Origin: Paenibacillus amylolyticus
GTDB taxonomy: Bacteria; Bacillota; Bacilli; Paenibacillales; Paenibacillaceae
Assembly: GCF_001570725.1 (NCBI RefSeq)
Contig: NZ_BCNV01000001.1
Location: 2,852,001-2,916,000 of the forward strand
Length of the DNA: 64,000 nt
Direction: 5' to 3'
Positions 41,139 to 58,853 of this stretch are shown here, in pieces. Below the pieces are notes generated by a model. That model saw only the letters and a list, made by a program, of their open reading frames with translations. It did not search any database and was not told the origin of the DNA. Positions within the stretch are counted from its first letter, which is position 1. Each line of letters begins with the position of its first letter. The translations under genes were made by a program, and so were the position numbers.

Positions 41139-41417
41139 ACCCCATCCGCCCCTCTCCTGAAACTACGACACATACAGCATGAAAATACGCAACATTTACC
41201 AATTCATCTCTCTAAAATTATATGAAACTCCGTTCCTCAGCACAAGAATTGCAGGCAGATTATTGAAAATGTCTCTAATACGACATACCCAAGTGTGTGC
41301 CTCATCACACCCGTCTCCTCCTCAATAACGTAATCTATAACTAAATAACTACTGAAATGAAAGATTACCTACTTTTTAGTTTGTGAAAAACATCACTTGA
41401 GTAAAGGTTGTGTCCCT
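41139..41417. promoter_or_regulatory. nirK upstream region with two Fnr-like boxes
   Basis: About 280 bases. Box 1, TGTGT-N6-TCACA at 41294-41309, is one base off the consensus. If active at -41.5 it predicts a -10 at 41331-41336 (TAATCT, three of six matches; TATAAC lies five bases further). Box 2, TGTGA-N6-TCACT at 41382-41397, is only 28 bases from the ATG by its centre and cannot be a class II activator site; it may block transcription or be accidental. Confidence 0.6.
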
Positions 41418-42410
41418 ATGTTTTCCTTAATGAATGTATATAAATGGTCACTTGTATTCGCCATATTTACAGCAACTCTCTCTCACTGTAGTACAACTGA
41501 TACGGTTAAACCAGTTCACCACAATGAAGTATCCCCCTCCTCTGCAGTCAGTCAACCTCCGGTGGACCCGATCATTCGTAGAGAAGGGACTACGGTATAT
41601 ATTGAAATGACGGCTCAGGTTACGAATATTGAAATTTCCGAAGGCGTGATCTACAACGCTTGGACATTTAATGGTACCGTCCCCGGACCGGTACTTCGTG
41701 TGACGGAGGGAGATACCTTGGTGTTCACGTTAAAAAATAAAGATTCCAGCTTGCCTCACTCCATGGATTTTCATGCTGTACATGCTGCTCCCAGCAGCAA
41801 ATTTATTGATGTTATGCCAGGCGAGGAAGGCACGTTCACCTATCCCACCTCCTCACCCGGTGTATTCATGTATCACTGCGGAACCAAACCGGTTCTTGCC
41901 CATATCGCTAACGGTATGTACGGCATGATTATTGTTGAATCCAAAACAGGATACCCCTCCGACCACTTGGTTGATCGTGAGTATACCCTTGTTCAGAGTG
42001 AATGGTATAAAGAGCATGATTACGAAGCTTTTTTGAACGGGGAACCGGATTATGTCGTATTTAACGGCAATGATTATGGATTAGTAAAACATCCCCTGTT
42101 AGCCAAAATAGGAGATACGGTTCGGATTTATGTCAGTAATGCCGGACCCAATGAAGTCTCATCCTTCCACGTTGTGGGTACCCTTATGGACCGTGTGTAT
42201 ACCGACGGGAATCCACGCAACATCCAGTATGGAATACAGACGGTTATGCTTCCCGCAAGTGGTGGAGCTGTTGTAGAGTTCACTGTGACCGAAGAAGGCG
42301 ATTATGCGATTGTAACCCATCAGTTCAACCATGTAGCCAAAGGCGCTGCGGCTGTTCTGCGTGTGACCAAGGATGGTACGGATCATGGTGGACCCGCCGT
42401 GTCTCACTGA
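41418..42410 (+). CDS. nirK: Copper nitrite reductase
   Basis: A 330-residue two-domain cupredoxin protein. It reduces nitrite to nitric oxide outside the membrane. Ligands seen: PHSMDFHA (first type-1 His, the catalytic Asp and the first type-2 His), MYHCGTKP...HIANGM (type-2 His, then type-1 Cys, His, Met). FHVVG corresponds to the second active-site His, and FNHVA to the third type-2 His. A signal sequence precedes a Cys in LSHCSTT, a poor lipobox, so lipid anchoring is uncertain. AAAGG stands about ten bases before the ATG at 41418. It is followed by an Fnr-type regulator. Confidence 0.9.
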   Translation: MFSLMNVYKWSLVFAIFTATLSHCSTTDTVKPVHHNEVSPSSAVSQPPVDPIIRREGTTVYIEMTAQVTNIEISEGVIYNAWTFNGTVPGPVLRVTEGDTLVFTLKNKDSSLPHSMDFHAVHAAPSSKFIDVMPGEEGTFTYPTSSPGVFMYHCGTKPVLAHIANGMYGMIIVESKTGYPSDHLVDREYTLVQSEWYKEHDYEAFLNGEPDYVVFNGNDYGLVKHPLLAKIGDTVRIYVSNAGPNEVSSFHVVGTLMDRVYTDGNPRNIQYGIQTVMLPASGGAVVEFTVTEEGDYAIVTHQFNHVAKGAAAVLRVTKDGTDHGGPAVSH

Positions 42411-42466: not shown

Positions 42467-43153
42467 ATGATCTGTGCGCACGAAGCGAAGGAAGCCTGTT
42501 TCTCCAAAGTATCTCTGTTCCAGCATCTTGATCCATCCGAAGCTGCATTGCTGACCTCCCTTTTGCATAACCGCAAATATAACAAAGGCGAAGTTGTCGT
42601 CCAGGAGGGAGAACGCTCAGATACGCTTTACGTGGTTCATCAGGGATGTGTGAAGTTATCCAAATACAATGAAAATGGCAAGGAACATATTATCCGGTTT
42701 CTGTTTCCCGGAGATTTCTTCGGACAAGATTCTCTTTTACATCAAAAACCACATGCCGCAAACGCCGAAGTTCTGGAGCCTTCGGCCATCTGCTCGATCA
42801 GCAAGCATGACTTTGACCAGTTACTTGAACATGATCCGAAGCTTGCTTATCATTTCCTGCTTGCCATTTCCAATCTGCTCCGTGAAACAGATGAATGGAA
42901 TAGCTCGCTCAGTGCGATGACAACGGAACAGAAGATTGCCAAGTTGCTTTTGTATTTTCATACCCGAAATCATGCAAAGCATGAGATCCGCTTGCCTGTT
43001 TTCAAAAAAGATATGGCTCTGCTACTCGGGATCACACCCGAAACCCTTAGTCGAAAACTCGCCATAATGCAAACTCAGGGACTGCTTCAGGTTACAGGGA
43101 ACTGTATCCTTATTCTTCAACTGGAACAGTTAAGGGAAATGGTTCCGTCCTGA
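42467..43153 (+). CDS. Crp/Fnr-family regulator with FNR-type helix and cysteines
   Basis: A 228-residue regulator. Cyclic-nucleotide-type beta barrel at about residues 15-125, dimer helix at about 125-150, helix-turn-helix at about 175-195 with recognition helix ITPETLSRKLAIMQ. The E-x-x-S-R pattern is that of E. coli FNR (Glu209, Ser212, Arg213), which reads TTGAT. Cysteines lie at 3, 11, 61, 109 and 213; Cys109 aligns with FNR Cys122 (AICSIS against MVCEIP). An iron-sulfur cluster is therefore plausible. GAGGTG stands before the ATG at 42467. Probably cotranscribed with nirK, since no promoter is evident between them. Confidence 0.85.
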   Translation: MICAHEAKEACFSKVSLFQHLDPSEAALLTSLLHNRKYNKGEVVVQEGERSDTLYVVHQGCVKLSKYNENGKEHIIRFLFPGDFFGQDSLLHQKPHAANAEVLEPSAICSISKHDFDQLLEHDPKLAYHFLLAISNLLRETDEWNSSLSAMTTEQKIAKLLLYFHTRNHAKHEIRLPVFKKDMALLLGITPETLSRKLAIMQTQGLLQVTGNCILILQLEQLREMVPS

Positions 43154-43271: not shown

Positions 43272-43287
43272 TGTGAGTATCGTCACA
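43272..43287 (+). promoter_or_regulatory. Fnr-type box upstream of YlbF-family gene
   Basis: A perfect TGTGA-GTATCG-TCACA. Its centre (43279.5) predicts at -41.5 a start near 43321 and a -10 at 43309-43314, where TACAGT is found (4 of 6 matches). The gene starts at 43344. Confidence 0.85.
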
Positions 43288-43343
43288 GTGCAGCCTAGCG
43301 TTACAGTATACAGTTAAGAAAAGATCTTCAGGAGGTTTATGCG

Positions 43344-43769
43344 ATGAATACGGTTGTTAAATTGGACAAACAGATCATTATGCACAAAATGCAGGAGCTC
43401 TGTTCACTGCTGTTACAGGATGAAGGATATAAAGAAATGCGAGACATGATTGATCAGTTTGCAGCAGATGAGCAGGCTACGACTCAGTATGAGAAATTTA
43501 TGGAGAAGCATCAGGCACTGGAAGAAAAAGAACGGCAGAATATTGAGTTGCTTGCCTCTGAAATTCAGGTATATGAAGAGGAAGAACGCGCACTCTATGA
43601 TCATCCCCTCATTCGCCGGTTCATCTATGCACAACGCGAGTTCAGCCAGCTACATCAGCAGATCAGCCACTATTTCACGAAATCCGTGGAATTGAACCGC
43701 CTGCCCGAATCCAATGAACTAGGTAAGGAAGCTTGCGGGTGCGGAGGAAGCTGTTCCGGCAGCCATTAA
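43344..43769 (+). CDS. YlbF-family protein with Cys-rich tail
   Basis: A 141-residue, mostly helical coiled-coil protein of the YlbF/YmcA family (long helical hairpin over residues 10-120). In B. subtilis, family members form an iron-sulfur-containing complex with YaaT that affects RNase Y. The C-terminus is CGCGGSCSGSH, a tail that could bind metal. Its promoter carries a perfect Fnr-type box, placing it in the anaerobic regulon. AGGAGG stands before the ATG. A terminator follows. Confidence 0.8.
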   Translation: MNTVVKLDKQIIMHKMQELCSLLLQDEGYKEMRDMIDQFAADEQATTQYEKFMEKHQALEEKERQNIELLASEIQVYEEEERALYDHPLIRRFIYAQREFSQLHQQISHYFTKSVELNRLPESNELGKEACGCGGSCSGSH

Positions 43770-45623: not shown

Positions 45624-46325
45624 ATGAGCAGGGTAAACAAAGATACAGCAGCGGAGTTTCTACAACAGTTCCCCATCTTCCAGGACCTTAGCCCCGAGGA
45701 ATTAAAGCAGGTCGAAGATATCGCCATTTCCAGAAGCATTCACAAGAAAACGGTTATTTTCAGCGAAGGTAGCGAAAAAGAAGCTGTTTTTTTCATTCGT
45801 ACCGGCATTGTAAAAGCTTATAAAACGGATGAGAATGGACATGAACAGATTGTCTCTTTCCTCAAAACAGGGGATATGTTCCCACACACCGGCTTTTTTA
45901 ACGCACACCCCTACCCGGCTACCGTTGAAGCGATTACCCCTACCGAACTACTGGCCATTCCTGTCAGATTATTCGAACGATTAATGCTCAGCACACCATC
46001 GATTGCGATCAAAATTATGCGTGTACTCGGAGACAAAATACGTGAACTACAGGACAAATTACAGGTGCTCTCTGGTCAGGATGTGCGCAATCGTGTGCTC
46101 TCCTTCCTTCTCATGCTCGCAGAGCAGCACGGGCAGACGCATGGAGATCAGATTGTCATCAACCTGCCCATGACACATCAGGAGTTTGCCAATTCCATCG
46201 GAACTACAAGGGAAACAGCGAACCGGCTTCTAAACCAGCTTATGAAAGAGCATTTGCTCGAAGTGGATCGCAGTCGGATTATCATTCTTGATTTACAAGC
46301 ATTGAAGCAACAGAGGGATGCTTAA
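45624..46325 (+). CDS. fnr: Crp/Fnr-family regulator, cysteine-free, CRP-type helix
   Basis: A 233-residue regulator. The beta-barrel effector domain runs from about 15 to 130, with the C-terminal helix-turn-helix at about 180-205. Its recognition helix IGTTRETANRLLNQLM carries R-E-x-x-x-R as in CRP (Arg180, Glu181, Arg185), which reads TGTGA, the half-site of the boxes found here. It has no cysteine at all, so it cannot hold a cluster through Cys like B. subtilis Fnr. AGAGGA precedes the ATG. It is divergent from ywiC, the B. subtilis fnr position. Confidence 0.88.
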   Translation: MSRVNKDTAAEFLQQFPIFQDLSPEELKQVEDIAISRSIHKKTVIFSEGSEKEAVFFIRTGIVKAYKTDENGHEQIVSFLKTGDMFPHTGFFNAHPYPATVEAITPTELLAIPVRLFERLMLSTPSIAIKIMRVLGDKIRELQDKLQVLSGQDVRNRVLSFLLMLAEQHGQTHGDQIVINLPMTHQEFANSIGTTRETANRLLNQLMKEHLLEVDRSRIIILDLQALKQQRDA

Positions 46326-46450: not shown

Positions 46451-47962
46451 TCAGGCTATTGTGAGCTCTGGCCTGCCCATATCACTGAACATGCCCGCAT
46501 AATATTTGACTTCGCCGGCTTCATTACGGATCGCTGTAATACTCAGCCATTCCTGATAGACTTCTCCGTTTTTCTTCCGATTCCAGATCTCGCCCTGCCA
46601 ATATCCTTTCTCACGTAATTCCAACCATAATTGGTCATAGAAACGTTTATCCTGCTTGCCGGATTTCAACAGACTTGGCTTCTGTCCAACCGCCTCTTCA
46701 GCGCTATAACCAGTGACTGCAGTAAAGGCCGGGTTCACGGAAGTAATAACACTGTTCGTATCCGTGATCAGAATCGCTTCAATTGTATTCTCCAGAATGC
46801 TGGCAGATAACTGAAGCTTCTCTTGGTAGAACATCCAGATCACAAGTACCAGGCTGACCAGCGCAATCTGTGACAACGCCATGAAACCAATGGCATAATG
46901 CCCCGTCATGCTATACAGCAAAGTCAACATCAACGGAGGGAAGAATCCGCCCAGACCACCCATAGCCGAGATCATCCCATTCGCTACACCTGGTTGTTTA
47001 ACGAAATACATTGGCACTAATTTGAAAATAGTCCCGTTACCTGTCCCTGCGCATAATGCCACAGTCAGGCACCCAATGGTGTAGATATAGAATGACGGCG
47101 CGAAGGATAATACAATCGCTGCAATCGTTAATCCGCCGAAGACAAACATTAATATTTTGAACGGATTAAATCGATCTCCAAGCCAGCCTCCAACAGGTCG
47201 CATGATGGTAGCAACGAGAATGAACCCCGCTGTACGAATACCTGCATCGACTTTGTCCATCTGGAAGTGACTGACTAAGAAGTTTGGCAAATATACCGTA
47301 AACGCCACGAACGAGCCAAATGTCAGAAAATAAAACAAGCAGAGCAACCATAGTTTATTGTTGCGTGATATGGCCTTCAGTTGTTGCATAAGCGGAACAT
47401 TAACACGAGTTTCCTTTTTGTCCCCCAGAGCAAAATTCAGCGCTGCCATCCCTAGTAGCAGAAAACTGTATAGCAGAACTGTCGTAGACCATCCCATACG
47501 ATCAGCAATCAGCGGGGCTCCGAATGCAGACAGTGCTGTACCCAGGTTACCAATTCCGTAGATCCCGTTAACAAAGCCATGTCGCTCTTTCGGATAATAT
47601 TTCGGTAGTGAAGTTACACCAACGGAGAAGACAGCTCCCCCAATACCGAGGAACAGTCCACCAATCACCAGATCACTGAACGATGTTGCACGGCTAATCC
47701 ACCATACAGGAGCCAGCAACAATACAAAGCTAATCATAAAAATATTGCGTGCTCCATATCGATTCGTCCAATAACCAATCGGAATACGGGCAATCGATCC
47801 GATCAATACGGGAATTGCTGTCGCCCATGCGAGCTGAGAAGACGTAAGCGCAATATCCTCTTTAATAAATGGCATCAGAGATGATAGGATAACCCATACC
47901 ATGAAACCAAGAACCAGACTTGCGGTTTGCAAGGGCAGTTGAACCTTACCTTTATGTTGCAT
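46451..47962 (-). CDS. narK: NarK-type nitrate/nitrite transporter fused to PAS domain
   Basis: A 503-residue MFS transporter of the nitrate/nitrite porter family with about 12 membrane segments over residues 12-380 (WATAIPVLIGSIARIPIGYWTNRYG is the NarK-type first loop; GTGNGTIFKLVPMYF the late signature). After the last segment a PAS domain follows at about residues 388-498 (ILENTIEAILITDTNSVITSVNPAFTAVTGYSAEEAVGQ...). Normal NarK ends without it. The start directly follows the narI stop, ribosome site GGAAAGGG. It is the last gene of the nar operon. Whether the PAS domain gates transport is not known. Confidence 0.92.
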   Translation of the reverse strand: MQHKGKVQLPLQTASLVLGFMVWVILSSLMPFIKEDIALTSSQLAWATAIPVLIGSIARIPIGYWTNRYGARNIFMISFVLLLAPVWWISRATSFSDLVIGGLFLGIGGAVFSVGVTSLPKYYPKERHGFVNGIYGIGNLGTALSAFGAPLIADRMGWSTTVLLYSFLLLGMAALNFALGDKKETRVNVPLMQQLKAISRNNKLWLLCLFYFLTFGSFVAFTVYLPNFLVSHFQMDKVDAGIRTAGFILVATIMRPVGGWLGDRFNPFKILMFVFGGLTIAAIVLSFAPSFYIYTIGCLTVALCAGTGNGTIFKLVPMYFVKQPGVANGMISAMGGLGGFFPPLMLTLLYSMTGHYAIGFMALSQIALVSLVLVIWMFYQEKLQLSASILENTIEAILITDTNSVITSVNPAFTAVTGYSAEEAVGQKPSLLKSGKQDKRFYDQLWLELREKGYWQGEIWNRKKNGEVYQEWLSITAIRNEAGEVKYYAGMFSDMGRPELTIA

Positions 47963-54630: not shown

Positions 54631-55632
54631 CTAACCTCCGATTTGCGACATATGTCGCAGCGTTGGCGTGCCGTCGATCTGTTGCCCGTTTAAGGCTTTT
54701 AACATGTCATGTGTTTCGGGTTTGGCTCCGAGTGCCTTGTAAAATAAATCCCGCACCGCCTTGTCATCACCTACGAGTGGACGAACATTGAACTCATCCG
54801 ACCAGTAGAGACAAGGTTTGATATTTCCATCTGCCGTCAGCCTGAGCCGATTGCAATTTCCGCAAAAATGGCTGCTCACCGGGTGAATCAAACCAAACGT
54901 TCCTGCAGCTCCCACAATGCGATAACTATCTGCAGGACCATTCCCGTAAATCTCTCCACAGCTTTCGTAATCCCATCGTGCTCCGCATGTTTCCAGCACA
55001 TGTTCGAGGGGCATATACCCTGATCTCCAACCATCTCCACTTTCTCCAATAGGCATGTACTCAATAAAACGAATATGAAGGGGTTCATCCCGGGTCATCC
55101 GCAGAAAATCTTCCACCTCATCGTCGTTCACGCCTTTCATCAACACCACGTTCAGCTTGATCGGATAAAATCCGGCCTTTTGGCTAGCCTTAATTCCATC
55201 CAGCACACGCTGTACCTTGCCGCCTCGAGTAATGCTTGCGAATCGATCTGGCTTCAAAGAATCCAGGCTTATGTTCACCCGGGTTAACCCCGCAGTCTTC
55301 AGCAGATCCGCATAAGCTGCCAAATAGATGCCATTGGTTGTCAATGCGATGTCCTCAATTCCCGGAATAGCGGATAACATTGCAATCAGTTGATCCAGCC
55401 CCTTGCGAACAAGAGGCTCCCCTCCGGTCAAACGCAATTTCCGAATGCCCAGTGGAGCAAGCGCCTTAACGATGGACGTGATTTCTTCATAGGACAGGAT
55501 GCGTTCTGTCGGTTCAAACTGCATTCCTTCCTCCGGCATGCAATACACGCAGCGGAGATTACAGCGATCCGTAACCGAAATTCTCAAATAATCATGCTCT
55601 CTTCCAAACGGGTCCATTAATGTTGATTCCAT
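54631..55632 (-). CDS. moaA: GTP 3',8-cyclase, molybdenum cofactor synthesis
   Basis: A 333-residue radical SAM enzyme that makes the first intermediate of the molybdenum cofactor used by NarG. The N-terminal cluster motif is CNLRCVYC (in ISVTDRCNLRCVYCMPEE). The C-terminal second cluster motif is CGNCNRLRLTADGNIKPCLYW. It lacks only the C-terminal GG variant detail: the end reads HMSQIGG, as usual. GGGAGG is seven bases before the ATG at 55632. It is the first gene of the moaA-narGHJI-narK operon, downstream of an Fnr-type promoter. Confidence 0.95.
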   Translation of the reverse strand: MESTLMDPFGREHDYLRISVTDRCNLRCVYCMPEEGMQFEPTERILSYEEITSIVKALAPLGIRKLRLTGGEPLVRKGLDQLIAMLSAIPGIEDIALTTNGIYLAAYADLLKTAGLTRVNISLDSLKPDRFASITRGGKVQRVLDGIKASQKAGFYPIKLNVVLMKGVNDDEVEDFLRMTRDEPLHIRFIEYMPIGESGDGWRSGYMPLEHVLETCGARWDYESCGEIYGNGPADSYRIVGAAGTFGLIHPVSSHFCGNCNRLRLTADGNIKPCLYWSDEFNVRPLVGDDKAVRDLFYKALGAKPETHDMLKALNGQQIDGTPTLRHMSQIGG

Positions 55633-55764: not shown

Positions 55765-55868
55765 AGAAGTGAAACATAGCGCACAGTTGCACATTTATAT
55801 ATGCTCGGCAACGCCTTTCCAAACAGGATTCTAGTCTAAATAAGGCAAAATTATGGCAAAAGAAAATG

Positions 55869-55911
55869 TGTGAGCAGGCTCACACAGACCCCTCTTCACC
55901 TTTTCTATAAT
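55869..55911 (+). promoter_or_regulatory. Fnr-type class II promoter of DUF2249 operon
   Basis: TGTGA-GCAGGC-TCACA at 55869-55884 is a perfect palindrome, extended to 55867-55886. Its centre is 55876.5, so a -41.5 site gives a start near 55918 and a -10 at 55906-55911, where TATAAT (6 of 6) stands exactly. The first gene starts at 55954. Confidence 0.93.
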
Positions 55912-55953
55912 CAAATTGCAACACCACACTATCCCTATCTGGAGGAATGACAC

Positions 55954-56187
55954 ATGAACACATACGCAGCAACCATTAATGCCACGGAGTATCCACCGCA
56001 TTTGAAACATAAAGTTATTTTCGAAACGTTTGATCAATTGCAACCACAGGAATCCATGCTGCTCATTAACGATCACGATCCTAAGCCCCTTCGATTCCAG
56101 TTCCAGTCCACACATCCCGATGGCTTCAACTGGGAGTATATTGAGCAGGGCCCTACAACCTTCCAGGTCAAAATCAGCAAATTATAG
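55954..56187 (+). CDS. DUF2249 protein (single domain)
   Basis: A 77-residue alpha/beta protein of the DUF2249 (SirA/TusA-like) family: 'TEYPPHLKHKVIFETFDQLQPQESMLLINDHDPKPLRFQF' has the family's conserved D-HDPKPLRFQF stretch. It lacks a Cys in the TusA-type position, so direct sulfur transfer is unlikely. GGAGG precedes the ATG. DUF2249 genes often lie near denitrification genes in Bacteria and Archaea. First gene of the Fnr-driven operon. Confidence 0.85.
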   Translation: MNTYAATINATEYPPHLKHKVIFETFDQLQPQESMLLINDHDPKPLRFQFQSTHPDGFNWEYIEQGPTTFQVKISKL

Positions 56188-56204
56188 ATTGGAGCTGAAC
56201 CGCT

Positions 56205-56579
56205 ATGGCGCACGTTGAAATCATTGACGATACTACACTCCGCATCACGCTGCGGCTGGAAGACGCTACGACCATGGTTCAAATGGCACAGCGTGAGCAA
56301 GCGGAATATGCGCAAGAGATTATCACCATTTACGAAAAAATGCCTGTGTTCGAATATACTCATTTCTGTTTTTACGCCTATGACAGTGCAAGACTTTTTG
56401 AGCGTGTGCTCGGCATGGACCCCAAAGCATACCTGTCCTTCTCCCTCGATGCGCCGGAGTCATTCTTCTATGCGCTGTTCGGTGGAATGGCCGCCCTGTA
56501 TGAATCATCTCTACAGTTGGTACAGCAGGCGGATGCAGCTAGTGCAGGATCGGATGTGAACGCACATGTCTCCATCTGA
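56205..56579 (+). CDS. Hypothetical protein of DUF2249 operon
   Basis: A 124-residue soluble protein, alpha/beta with several aromatic residues (YEKMPVFEYTHFCFYAYDSARLFERVLGMDPKAYLSF). No motif recognised. It has one Cys, no metal motif and no membrane segment. It begins 17 bases after the first DUF2249 gene and overlaps the next gene by 14 bases, so it is cotranscribed and probably coupled in translation. Its invariant place between two DUF2249 genes is the best clue to function. Confidence 0.65.
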   Translation: MAHVEIIDDTTLRITLRLEDATTMVQMAQREQAEYAQEIITIYEKMPVFEYTHFCFYAYDSARLFERVLGMDPKAYLSFSLDAPESFFYALFGGMAALYESSLQLVQQADAASAGSDVNAHVSI

Positions 56580-57177
56580 TGTCCATATTGTTGAATTGGA
56601 TGTGCGTCCTCATCTGAGTAAAAAGTTGGAGCCGTTTCAACTGATCATGGACACGGTCAAAGGCCTTCAGCATGAAGATGTCTTTGTACTCCATGCTCCA
56701 TTCAAACCCACGCCTCTGCTTGGTATTCTCAAGATGAAAGGATACTCAAGCACATCGGAACGAAAGGGTTCGGATCACTGGGTTACCACGTTTGTGCACA
56801 AAAAAAACAAAACCGGTGCAAAAGCCTTATCTGCAATGGTTTTATCTGGATCGGAAGCTGATTCTACGTCTGAGCCCGGTTCAGACGTAGAATCAGCTTC
56901 ATGCAAAGGACATCCGGAGGAACAAGCTGTTGCGATTGAAAACCTTGAACTTCTACAGGCGCCCACCGTTATACTGGACAATCGCGGATTGGAACCGCCA
57001 CAACCCATGATGCGAACACTTGCCGCACTGGAGCGTTGCAAACCTGGGGAAGTCGTGCTGATCCACAATGACCGTGTGCCTGTCTTCTTGATAGAAGAGT
57101 TAAATAATCTCGGTTGCCCCTACACCGTTGAGGATCAAGCCGATGGTACGGCCAAAGTGAGAATTGAAAAAGGGTAA
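56566..57177 (+). CDS. Tandem DUF2249 protein
   Basis: A 203-residue protein with two DUF2249 domains, residues about 6-80 (VHIVELDVRPHLSKKLEPFQLIMDTVKGLQHEDVFVLHAPFKPTPLLGIL) and 123-200 (PTVILDNRGLEPPQPMMRTLAALERCKPGEVVLIHNDRVPVFLIEELN). The linker between them (residues 97-112) is coded by a 47-bp perfect or near-perfect palindrome and reads EADSTSEPGSDVESAS. The domains keep the family's LDVRP/LDNRG start and the Asp-rich HND segment. Function unknown. It overlaps the preceding gene by 14 bases. Confidence 0.85.
   Translation: MSPSDVHIVELDVRPHLSKKLEPFQLIMDTVKGLQHEDVFVLHAPFKPTPLLGILKMKGYSSTSERKGSDHWVTTFVHKKNKTGAKALSAMVLSGSEADSTSEPGSDVESASCKGHPEEQAVAIENLELLQAPTVILDNRGLEPPQPMMRTLAALERCKPGEVVLIHNDRVPVFLIEELNNLGCPYTVEDQADGTAKVRIEKG
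56854..56900. repeat. 47-bp near-perfect inverted repeat in coding linker
   Basis: Two 20-base arms (56854-56873 and 56881-56900) are exact reverse complements, separated by 7 bases (GCCCGGT) that are themselves mostly pairing. The repeat is in frame in the linker between the two DUF2249 domains and translates to the same peptide on either strand. The product is a small palindromic insertion or an RNA hairpin site. Confidence 0.95.
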
Positions 57178-57190
57178 GGAGGCAAAGGCC

Positions 57191-58423
57191 ATGTCCAGGT
57201 TGCCGTTTCTTTTTATCATCACGGGCATCTTTGGATTTGTAATGTATCACGCATTCTCCCTGCTCTCGCTGACAGGCTGGCTTGGTGATGAACTCAGAGG
57301 ACCCGAAGGCTGGTTTCATGCCCATCTGTTTGTGCTCGGATGGGCAACCATGCTAGCTATGGGTGCCATTTATCAGTTGATACATGTTATTTTGCAATCC
57401 AATATCTACAGTCTGATTCTCGGTTATTGTCATTATTTCTTGTTCAGTATTGGAATCGCGGGCATGTTATACGGCTTCATTCGTGCAGATGTCATCTGGA
57501 TTGCCGGTTCTGCTACACTCGCGCTCTCGGGCATTCTATTGTTCGGATGGAATATGGGCGCTACCCTTCTCCGTGCCTCACAGTGGAATCCGGTGACGAT
57601 CAGTGCAGCTTGTTCCTGTCTTTATCTGGTTCTTACCGGGCTGTCCGGTATGCTGATGGGTCTGAATTTTGCCTTTGGTGATTGGAACGGTCTGCATGAA
57701 CGCTTATTCGGCGCACATATCTGGATGGGAACACTCGGCTGGTTTGGCATGTTAATTACCGGCTTCAGTTACAAAATGCTGCCCATGTTCTACCTGTCCC
57801 ACGATTATTCCATTCGACTGCAAAAAGTGGTCTTGGTTCTGTGGAATGCAGCTGTAGTTACAGGTGTTGTCGCATTTCTGACAGGTATTAAAGGAGGCTT
57901 GCTCTGGTTTGCGCTCTTACTTCTAACCGCCGCCCTTCTCTTCTATGTGTATCACTTGGAGCAAATTCAGGAGAAACGGCACAAAAGTAACCCAGGTCCG
58001 GGCATCCGCTGGTCTGTGTATGTAAGCCGTGCGTTTGCTGTATATGCTGTTGCACTACTGATCTATTCTTCGCAAGGGACTGAACTGCTGCTCCATCCAC
58101 GTGTTGTTCTGCTGTCTGGATGGGTATATCTCGGGGGGTGGGTGTCTCTCACCATACTTGGCTATGCCTCCAAAATTGTGCCTTTTCTATGGTGGACCCA
58201 CAAATATGGCAAGCAGGCCGGCAGACCCGGAACACCGCTGATGGCAGGTATGTTGAGTGAACGTCATGTCAATTGGGGTATGCTCGCAATGGTTGCTGGA
58301 AGCCTTCTGCTTGTCAGTGGAATTCTGATTAATCTGGCTGAGGTCATGATGGTTGGAGGGACGATTTTGTCTCTTGTCTCCATCCTTTATATAACAAATA
58401 TTGCTTTGGTATTCAGACGTTAA
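57191..58423 (+). CDS. Haem-copper-oxidase-like multi-spanning membrane protein
   Basis: A 410-residue protein with about twelve membrane segments. It resembles the small subunit-I-like proteins related to haem-copper oxidases and NnrS-type proteins found near denitrification genes. Conserved His groups are GWFHAHLFVLGWATM (early), FGAHIWMGTLGWFGML (middle) and HPRVVLLSGWVYLG with WWTHKYG (late), candidate haem or metal ligands. It lacks the full six-His set of a classical oxidase. AAGGAGG is well placed before the ATG at 57191. Possible roles are NO handling or electron transfer; neither is proven. Confidence 0.7.
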   Translation: MSRLPFLFIITGIFGFVMYHAFSLLSLTGWLGDELRGPEGWFHAHLFVLGWATMLAMGAIYQLIHVILQSNIYSLILGYCHYFLFSIGIAGMLYGFIRADVIWIAGSATLALSGILLFGWNMGATLLRASQWNPVTISAACSCLYLVLTGLSGMLMGLNFAFGDWNGLHERLFGAHIWMGTLGWFGMLITGFSYKMLPMFYLSHDYSIRLQKVVLVLWNAAVVTGVVAFLTGIKGGLLWFALLLLTAALLFYVYHLEQIQEKRHKSNPGPGIRWSVYVSRAFAVYAVALLIYSSQGTELLLHPRVVLLSGWVYLGGWVSLTILGYASKIVPFLWWTHKYGKQAGRPGTPLMAGMLSERHVNWGMLAMVAGSLLLVSGILINLAEVMMVGGTILSLVSILYITNIALVFRR

Positions 58424-58454
58424 CATAAATAAGGTGGACTGGAGAGTGAACAGG

Positions 58455-58754
58455 ATGGAACAAACCACGCATTTGCTAGAATGTCTCAAGGAAGTGTATG
58501 ACCCTGAATTAGGTGTCAATATCGTTGACCTGGGTCTCGTATATGAAGTAAGGGAAGAGCCTGAACGGGTACATGTACGGATGACGCTGACTACACCAGG
58601 TTGCCCGCTGCATGATACAATTGTCGGTGCGGTGAAATGGGTTTTGCAGGAGAATACAAATAAGACCGATATTGATGTACAAGTGGTGTGGGAGCCACAA
58701 TGGTCTCCACAGCTGATGTCGAATGAAGCCAAAGAAATGCTGGGATACTTCTAG
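58455..58754 (+). CDS. SufT-like (DUF59) iron-sulfur assembly factor
   Basis: A 99-residue DUF59/MIP18 protein: 'EVYDPELGVNIVDLGLVYEV' and MTLTTPGCPLHDTI are the family blocks, with the conserved Cys in PGCP. Such proteins help to mature iron-sulfur or related clusters, which fits an operon linked to nitrate respiration. The ATG at 58455 stands ten bases after GGAG; a GTG nine bases earlier is the alternative. It ends the operon before a terminator. Confidence 0.85.
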   Translation: MEQTTHLLECLKEVYDPELGVNIVDLGLVYEVREEPERVHVRMTLTTPGCPLHDTIVGAVKWVLQENTNKTDIDVQVVWEPQWSPQLMSNEAKEMLGYF

Positions 58755-58803: not shown

Positions 58804-58853
58804 AAAAAGCATACCTAAGCTCTGATGTTCTCAGACCCAGGTATGCTTTTTGT
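58804..58853 (+). terminator. Terminator of DUF2249 operon
   Basis: A 13-bp stem (58804-58816 with 58839-58851) with a 22-base loop and T run, 50 bases past the SufT-like stop. Confidence 0.92.

Follow-up and report, generated by a model that had tools for sequence, protein, structure and literature searches.

We analysed a window of 64,000 nucleotides from Paenibacillus amylolyticus (contig NZ_BCNV01000001.1, positions 2,852,001 to 2,916,000) in which five genes on the + strand form an operon that joins DUF2249 proteins, a homologue of haem-copper oxidases, and a SufT-like protein. We refer to these genes, in order, as D1, U124, DD, OX, and SufT-like. D1 (55954 to 56187) encodes a single DUF2249 protein of 77 amino acids (PF10006, E = 2e-23) that is homologous to Thermus DrpA, and U124 (56205 to 56579) encodes an orphan of 124 amino acids that matches no known family in Pfam, NCBIfam, or PHROG. 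DD (56566 to 57177) encodes a double DUF2249 protein of 203 amino acids in which PF10006 matches twice (E = 1.3e-29), homologous to the DUF2249 part of Thermus DrpB. The product of OX (57191 to 58423) is the predicted haem-copper-oxidase homologue, a protein of 410 amino acids with 12 hydrophobic helices in which H45 and H176 are the only conserved histidines. The last gene, SufT-like (58455 to 58754), encodes a DUF59/MIP18 protein of 99 amino acids (PF01883, E = 9e-17) that keeps the cysteine of its TTPGCP motif. The coordinates of all five open reading frames were confirmed, with intergenic distances of +17, -14, +13, and +31 nt (a negative value is an overlap). A preliminary description of this DNA had recognized five tightly spaced or overlapping genes and had assigned DUF2249 to genes 1 and 3, SufT to gene 5, and no family to gene 2, all of which agrees with our results.

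Upstream of D1 lies a CRP/FNR-type operator, TGTGAGCAGGCTCACA (55869 to 55884, +), that matches the palindrome TGTGA-N6-TCACA exactly, with 0 mismatches, followed by a perfect -10 element, TATAAT (55906 to 55911, +). The palindrome is centred 41.5 bp upstream of the start site at 55918, as in the layout of a class II CRP/FNR promoter. By arithmetic, about 0.06 perfect 10-base matches are expected by chance per 64 kb. Of 74 orthologous operons, 51 carry the perfect box within the 220 bp before the first gene, and its central hexamer takes 33 different forms. Among the 49 loci with at least 4/6 matches to TATAAT, 43 have the -10 element at the identical spacing (37 nt from the start of the box to the -10). 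Because the box is kept across these loci despite changing hexamers, at a constant distance from the -10 element, it is not a chance match, and judged from its sequence the operon promoter is a conserved promoter of the class II CRP/FNR type. The operon had earlier been called Fnr-driven; the promoter type holds, and the regulator itself is placed at the level of the CRP/FNR family only. Two genes of this family are encoded in the window (42467 to 43153 and 45624 to 46325). The second, on the + strand beside ywiC, encodes a protein without any cysteine, which is therefore not an iron-sulfur (Fe-S) Fnr. Another perfect TGTGA-N6-TCACA box lies just upstream of a YlbF/YmcA-family gene (43272 to 43769, +), whose product has a cysteine-rich tail (CGCGGSC) and has homologues near the operon in other species.

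The closest database proteins to OX are from Paenibacillus sp. LS1 and its relatives (97 to 99% identity). OX matches COX1 weakly (E = 0.0016, below the Pfam cutoff). The AlphaFold2 model of OX has a predicted local distance difference test score (pLDDT) of 92.6 and a predicted template-modelling score (pTM) of 0.91, and its best PDB matches are the bo3, cbb3, and aa3 oxidases and cNOR, with template-modelling scores (TM-scores) mostly between 0.70 and 0.78. These structural matches uphold the earlier impression of an oxidase-like membrane protein, with a predicted haem-copper-oxidase fold. Across 161 relatives of OX, fragments and one tyrosine substitution excepted, the only invariant histidines are H45, in helix 2, and H176, in helix 6. 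The substitution is found in P. elgii (locus L054, 8001 to 9233), the sole full-length relative in which H176 is replaced. A third histidine, H204, is invariant only in operon-type OX proteins, and Q62, K195, and K328 are nearly invariant. Homologues in Thermus, Rhizobium, Mesorhizobium, and Halobaculum keep H45, H176, and Q62 at 18 to 33% identity. The preliminary description had proposed His-rich segments, a view that is not supported, as conservation is limited to H45 and H176 and, among the operon-type proteins, H204. OX has the 12-helix oxidase fold and lacks the set of six histidines that ligate a low-spin haem, a high-spin haem, and CuB or FeB. With only two histidines conserved across phyla, OX is ruled out as a canonical oxidase or nitric oxide (NO) reductase; it is possible that one haem sits between H45 and H176. 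A 133-residue repeat, in which the spacing of W51/W184/W317 and of Q62/K195/K328 is exact, was not singled out by profile self-comparison, and we do not use it as evidence.

Three families invite comparison with OX. The haem-copper oxidases and NO reductases (PF00115) share its overall predicted fold, but OX has no CuB site and only two conserved histidines. NnrS (PF05940), which is reported to take part in NO detoxification (PMC7415380), resembles OX as an oxidase-related membrane protein in NO-linked gene clusters; it differs in being encoded by a separate gene that neighbours OX in Rhizobium, Mesorhizobium, and Gemmobacter. The profile search of OX proposed earlier gave no support to NnrS: among 57 aligned relatives, none match PF05940, whereas true NnrS neighbour proteins score 349 to 372 bits, and 38 match COX1, weakly. 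We rejected the identification of OX as NnrS on this result and on the coexistence of OX and nnrS as separate genes. The third comparison is with families of haem-copper oxidase homology (HCOH) linked to denitrification, reportedly described by Pei and colleagues in 2014, which share with OX 12 helices, the oxidase fold, two conserved histidines, and a genomic link to denitrification and DUF2249. From its sequence features and structural model, which show these traits of the three-unit HCOH family, we place OX among the HCOH-type oxidase homologues rather than the oxidases, NO reductases, or NnrS. Six loci (L034, L037, L061, L069, L056, and L066) also encode a second, divergent OX paralogue, OX2, without a SufT neighbour; several OX2 loci have, in addition, a gene for protoporphyrinogen oxidase (hemY) or a TIGR04053 radical S-adenosylmethionine gene related to haem-synthesis enzymes.

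The soluble partners of OX are conserved at distinct positions. The DUF2249 domains of D1 and of both halves of DD are the only ones found in the genome. In D1, H19 and H41 are invariant. The second half of DD is TusA-like and has invariant His, Arg, and Asp residues without the sulfurtransferase cysteine; we rejected a role for DUF2249 as a TusA sulfur carrier because LDVRP or LDNRG replaces the Cys motif in DD. The SufT-like protein resembles SufT/MIP18 proteins, whose role is Fe-S protein maturation (PMC4982691, PMC9045647), in being a single-domain DUF59 protein with a TxPGCP cysteine, C50, which is invariant in 77/77 sequences. It differs from them in that its gene sits with denitrification genes rather than suf genes and in scoring below the NCBIfam equivalog cutoffs. 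A domain-library search of the five proteins turned up neither a DNA-binding domain nor a kinase/phosphatase domain, and PDB sequence searches with OX, U124, D1, and DD gave no matches. U124 also has no structural match in the PDB despite a confident model (pLDDT 90.6). In P. xylanexedens (L010, 7226 to 7341), an in-frame internal deletion leaves 38 codons of the U124 gene, while the other operon genes and the promoter are intact. Because of this deletion, and because the gene is missing from the Thermus and Rhizobium operons, we rejected U124 as a core part of the module.

We surveyed the distribution of OX in 181 Paenibacillaceae genomes and in a wider sample of 399 Bacilli genomes. Among the Paenibacillaceae, OX was present in 28 genomes, a NirK orthologue in 27, and both in 26; NirK thus occurred in 26/28 genomes with OX versus 1/153 without it (p = 5e-28, for sampled genomes that are related to one another). 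Outside the host's own genus, 14 Paenibacillaceae genomes had both, 2 had only OX, none had only NirK, and 145 had neither. A single genome, G177, has an intact nirK without OX. NarG was present in 61 Paenibacillaceae genomes, of which 18 had OX and 43 did not, so we rejected an exclusive link to nitrate reductase. The quinol-type enzyme qNor was found in 13 Paenibacillaceae genomes, 9 of them with both OX and NirK and the other 4 with neither; OX as an exclusive substitute for qNor was rejected, since OX also occurs in qNor genomes and the qNor-only Paenibacillaceae are without it. Across the 399 Bacilli genomes, relatives of OX were detected in 77 (48/145 genera), and the OX-SufT pair, mostly with DUF2249, in 61, where the SufT neighbour was found directly or, for the host's own family, was carried over from the loci analysed earlier. 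NirK is present in 35 of these 61 genomes and qNor in 27, both strongly enriched. For the 47 genomes outside the family that carry the triad, we detected NirK and qNor together in 15, NirK only in 6, qNor only in 11, and neither in 15. It follows from these distributions that the module tracks nitrogen-oxide respiration generally and NirK specifically within the Paenibacillaceae.

We looked for the module in other phyla by tblastn in annotated plasmids, and in Thermus all of the core genes were found together. In T. thermophilus AA2-2 and SG0.5JP17-16, the order is drpA, drpB, a gene for a 144-residue protein, a protoglobin gene, the OX homologue, and the SufT homologue, all on the same strand, overlapping or separated by short gaps, and close to nar genes. 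Identities to the Thermus proteins are 43% for gene 1 with DrpA, 33% for gene 3 with DrpB, 33% for OX, and 48% for SufT. Like drpA and drpB, the window genes encode a single and then a double DUF2249 protein together beside nar and nir genes, and the Thermus pair is co-regulated with nitrate respiration; by homology and arrangement, the DUF2249 genes of the window belong with drpA/drpB. Two differences are that Thermus DrpB carries a DUF1858 domain, which DD lacks, and that the apparent Thermus operon adds the 144-residue protein and protoglobin genes (L179, 14578 to 15854; L185, 7545 to 8821). The 144-residue protein has a partial COX1 match and is perhaps a single-unit oxidase homologue. The published account treats drpAB as a bicistronic operon for nitrate sensors, does not consider the OX and SufT genes in its accessible part, and reports that deletion of drpAB leaves NarG made but poorly active, with nitrate control lost (PMC6282519).

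In the alphaproteobacteria, the OX homologue occurs with double-DUF2249 and SufT genes beside nnrS and nirK in Rhizobium etli p42f and Gemmobacter, and beside nnrS in Mesorhizobium and Sinorhizobium meliloti pSymA. In Mesorhizobium, nos genes adjoin, with the SufT gene at a distance of a few genes, and in R. etli, OX coexists with a nor-type cluster. An NO- and FixLJ-induced Sinorhizobium operon, reportedly described by de Bruijn and colleagues in 2006, is possibly, though not provably, the pSymA copy. On a haloarchaeal plasmid, an OX homologue lies close to a DUF2249 gene, without SufT, and DUF2249 genes of Haloferax are induced under denitrification (PMC11218638). The DUF2249-OX-SufT module is thus common to Bacillota, Deinococcota, and Alphaproteobacteria, with partial relatives in archaea.

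The surroundings of the operon and the rest of the host genome supply the context for its role. As described before, the operon stands back to back with moaA (54631 to 55632, -), which heads the divergent nar genes (narGHJI and narK). The NarK-type nitrate transporter beside nar (46451 to 47962, -) is a transporter-sensor fusion, with MFS_1 at residues 16 to 341 and a C-terminal PAS domain at residues 388 to 495. Downstream of SufT-like, a likely terminator hairpin (58804 to 58851, +) is formed by a 13-nt inverted repeat, AAAAAGCATACCT / AGGTATGCTTTTT (58804 to 58816 and 58839 to 58851), with T's at its end; we read it from the sequence, as its loop exceeds the limit of the hairpin scan, which does not list it. 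An Rfam search found no RNA element. The window also carries nirK (41397 to 42410, +), for a lipoprotein-type copper nitrite reductase. This NirK matches the solved copper nitrite reductase 3wi9 (E about 6e-120) and has the motifs DFHAVH, YHCGTK, SSFHVV, and THQFNH, by which it is assigned as a genuine copper nitrite reductase. In searches of the whole 6.76-Mb genome, we found only two COX1 proteins, of the CtaD and QoxB types, and no haem-copper NO reductase; the earlier remark that the window has nirK and no recognized NO reductase therefore extends to the genome, including any norB elsewhere. RIC was not found in the genome, and a flavohaemoglobin is present, above the curated cutoff.

The safest statement is that the operon serves nitrogen-oxide respiration as an accessory module and encodes no enzyme of the pathway. 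The co-occurrence with NirK and the conserved loci sustain the link to nitrogen oxides, with soluble DUF2249 and SufT partners, that had been suggested at the outset. Our preferred reading, to which we give slightly less than an even chance, is that a membrane haem provides NO- or nitrite-dependent sensing or buffering, while the DUF2249 and SufT-like proteins protect or mature metal cofactors. OX would hold one haem between H45 and H176 near the outer face of the membrane, placed where NirK releases NO, and would either bind NO or act as a sensor for it or for its redox state. It may then pass a signal to the cytoplasmic DrpA/DrpB-like DUF2249 proteins and the SufT-like protein, which would keep the metal cofactors of nitrogen-oxide enzymes mature or repaired. 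Several observations weigh against this scheme. Thermus DrpA is reported to be periplasmic, which misfits a purely cytoplasmic partner. In nearly all of the Paenibacillaceae genomes that carry both, OX and nirK share a contig and lie within about 20 kb of each other, so their co-occurrence partly reflects gain and loss of an island. Finally, neither NirK nor qNor was detected in 15 triad genomes outside the family, so that the context of the module is not confined to NO from NirK. A broader proposal, which we regard as doubtful, is that the DUF2249 pair, the degenerate OX, and SufT constitute one ancient, widespread NO-tolerance system apart from NnrS, Hmp, RIC, and NO reductases. Such a system would let NirK bacteria without an NO reductase live with their own NO, and Thermus DrpA and DrpB would be two of its parts.

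By analogy with Thermus, the operon might instead be sensory or regulatory, with the DrpA/DrpB-type DUF2249 proteins and the membrane-bound OX detecting nitrate, nitrite, or NO and tuning nar/nir transcription. We consider this unlikely. The shared genes match those of the Thermus drp locus individually and in order, nitrate-dependent control is lost in Thermus deletion strains, and OX lacks ligands for CuB and a high-spin haem, all of which would suit a sensor. However, none of the five proteins has a DNA-binding or kinase/phosphatase domain, the operon itself lies behind a CRP/FNR-type promoter, and the most constant partner is the SufT-like gene, which a pure sensor would not need.

It is improbable that OX and its partners serve as a maturation factor for one enzyme, either NirK or NarGHI, into which they would insert copper, haem, or Fe-S/Mo cofactors. 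Homology to SufT fits such a function, as does the poor activity of NarG in Thermus drpAB deletion strains, but OX is absent from 43/61 genomes with narG, Paenibacillaceae genomes with norZ and without nirK are also without OX, and nirK is intact in G177 without OX. We think it very improbable that OX is an electron route in which menaquinol would reduce the OX haem and the electrons would pass, in certain species by way of a CuA-like lipoprotein, to the lipoprotein NirK. This route is attractive because the menaquinol path to Bacillus NirK is stated to be unresolved (PMC3475470) and because one clade has a CuA-like lipoprotein; furthermore, OX and NirK are nearly one-to-one in Paenibacillaceae, and nirK directly adjoins in many loci. 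The CuA-like lipoprotein is a small cupredoxin with a C-x3-C-x3-H-x2-M motif; in the P. timonensis group its gene flanks nirK-DD-OX-SufT and is convergent to the SufT gene (L018, L021, L024-L026, L031, L032, L042, and L053, at about 9.7 to 10.3 kb). Against this route, the cupredoxin gene lies away from the operon in most species, 26 of the 47 triad genomes outside the family have no NirK, the Thermus set adjoins nar, and there is no obvious part for DUF2249 and SufT. That OX is a new type of NO reductase replacing norB is scarcely credible, and we rejected it on ligand loss: the predicted haem-copper-oxidase fold and a genome without another haem-copper NO reductase speak for it, but the CuB ligands and the full set of haem-ligand histidines are missing in all relatives of OX. 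Of the 28 family genomes with OX, 9 also have qNor, and R. etli has OX together with a nor-type cluster. The suggestion in the preliminary description that the operon may be the means by which the cell handles NO was not borne out either, given that these ligands are lost, that the module also occurs in genomes with qNor or norCBQD, and that the host has a flavohaemoglobin.

The operon had been offered as an undescribed module, which is too broad, as its DUF2249 genes have homologous counterparts in Thermus drpA/drpB and denitrification-linked families of oxidase homologues are already known, as is the link between DUF2249 and denitrification. The novelty lies in the joined, conserved operon with its promoter and in the co-occurrence of this operon with NirK; we found no description of these in a literature search that covered few subscription journals. 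Three things that were separately studied or ignored, namely DUF2249 proteins of the DrpAB type, oxidase homologues without a catalytic centre, and SufT, are joined in one module. The OX and SufT genes follow drpB in the same apparent Thermus operon, which suggests that the drpAB results merit re-reading. The single operon, its conserved promoter, and its near one-to-one link to nirK in the Paenibacillaceae make it a concrete target for deletion. In many soil Bacilli, here the host's own genus, nirK is present and a haem-copper NO reductase is not, and the way in which such Bacilli withstand or remove NO has a bearing on the release of NO and N2O from soil.

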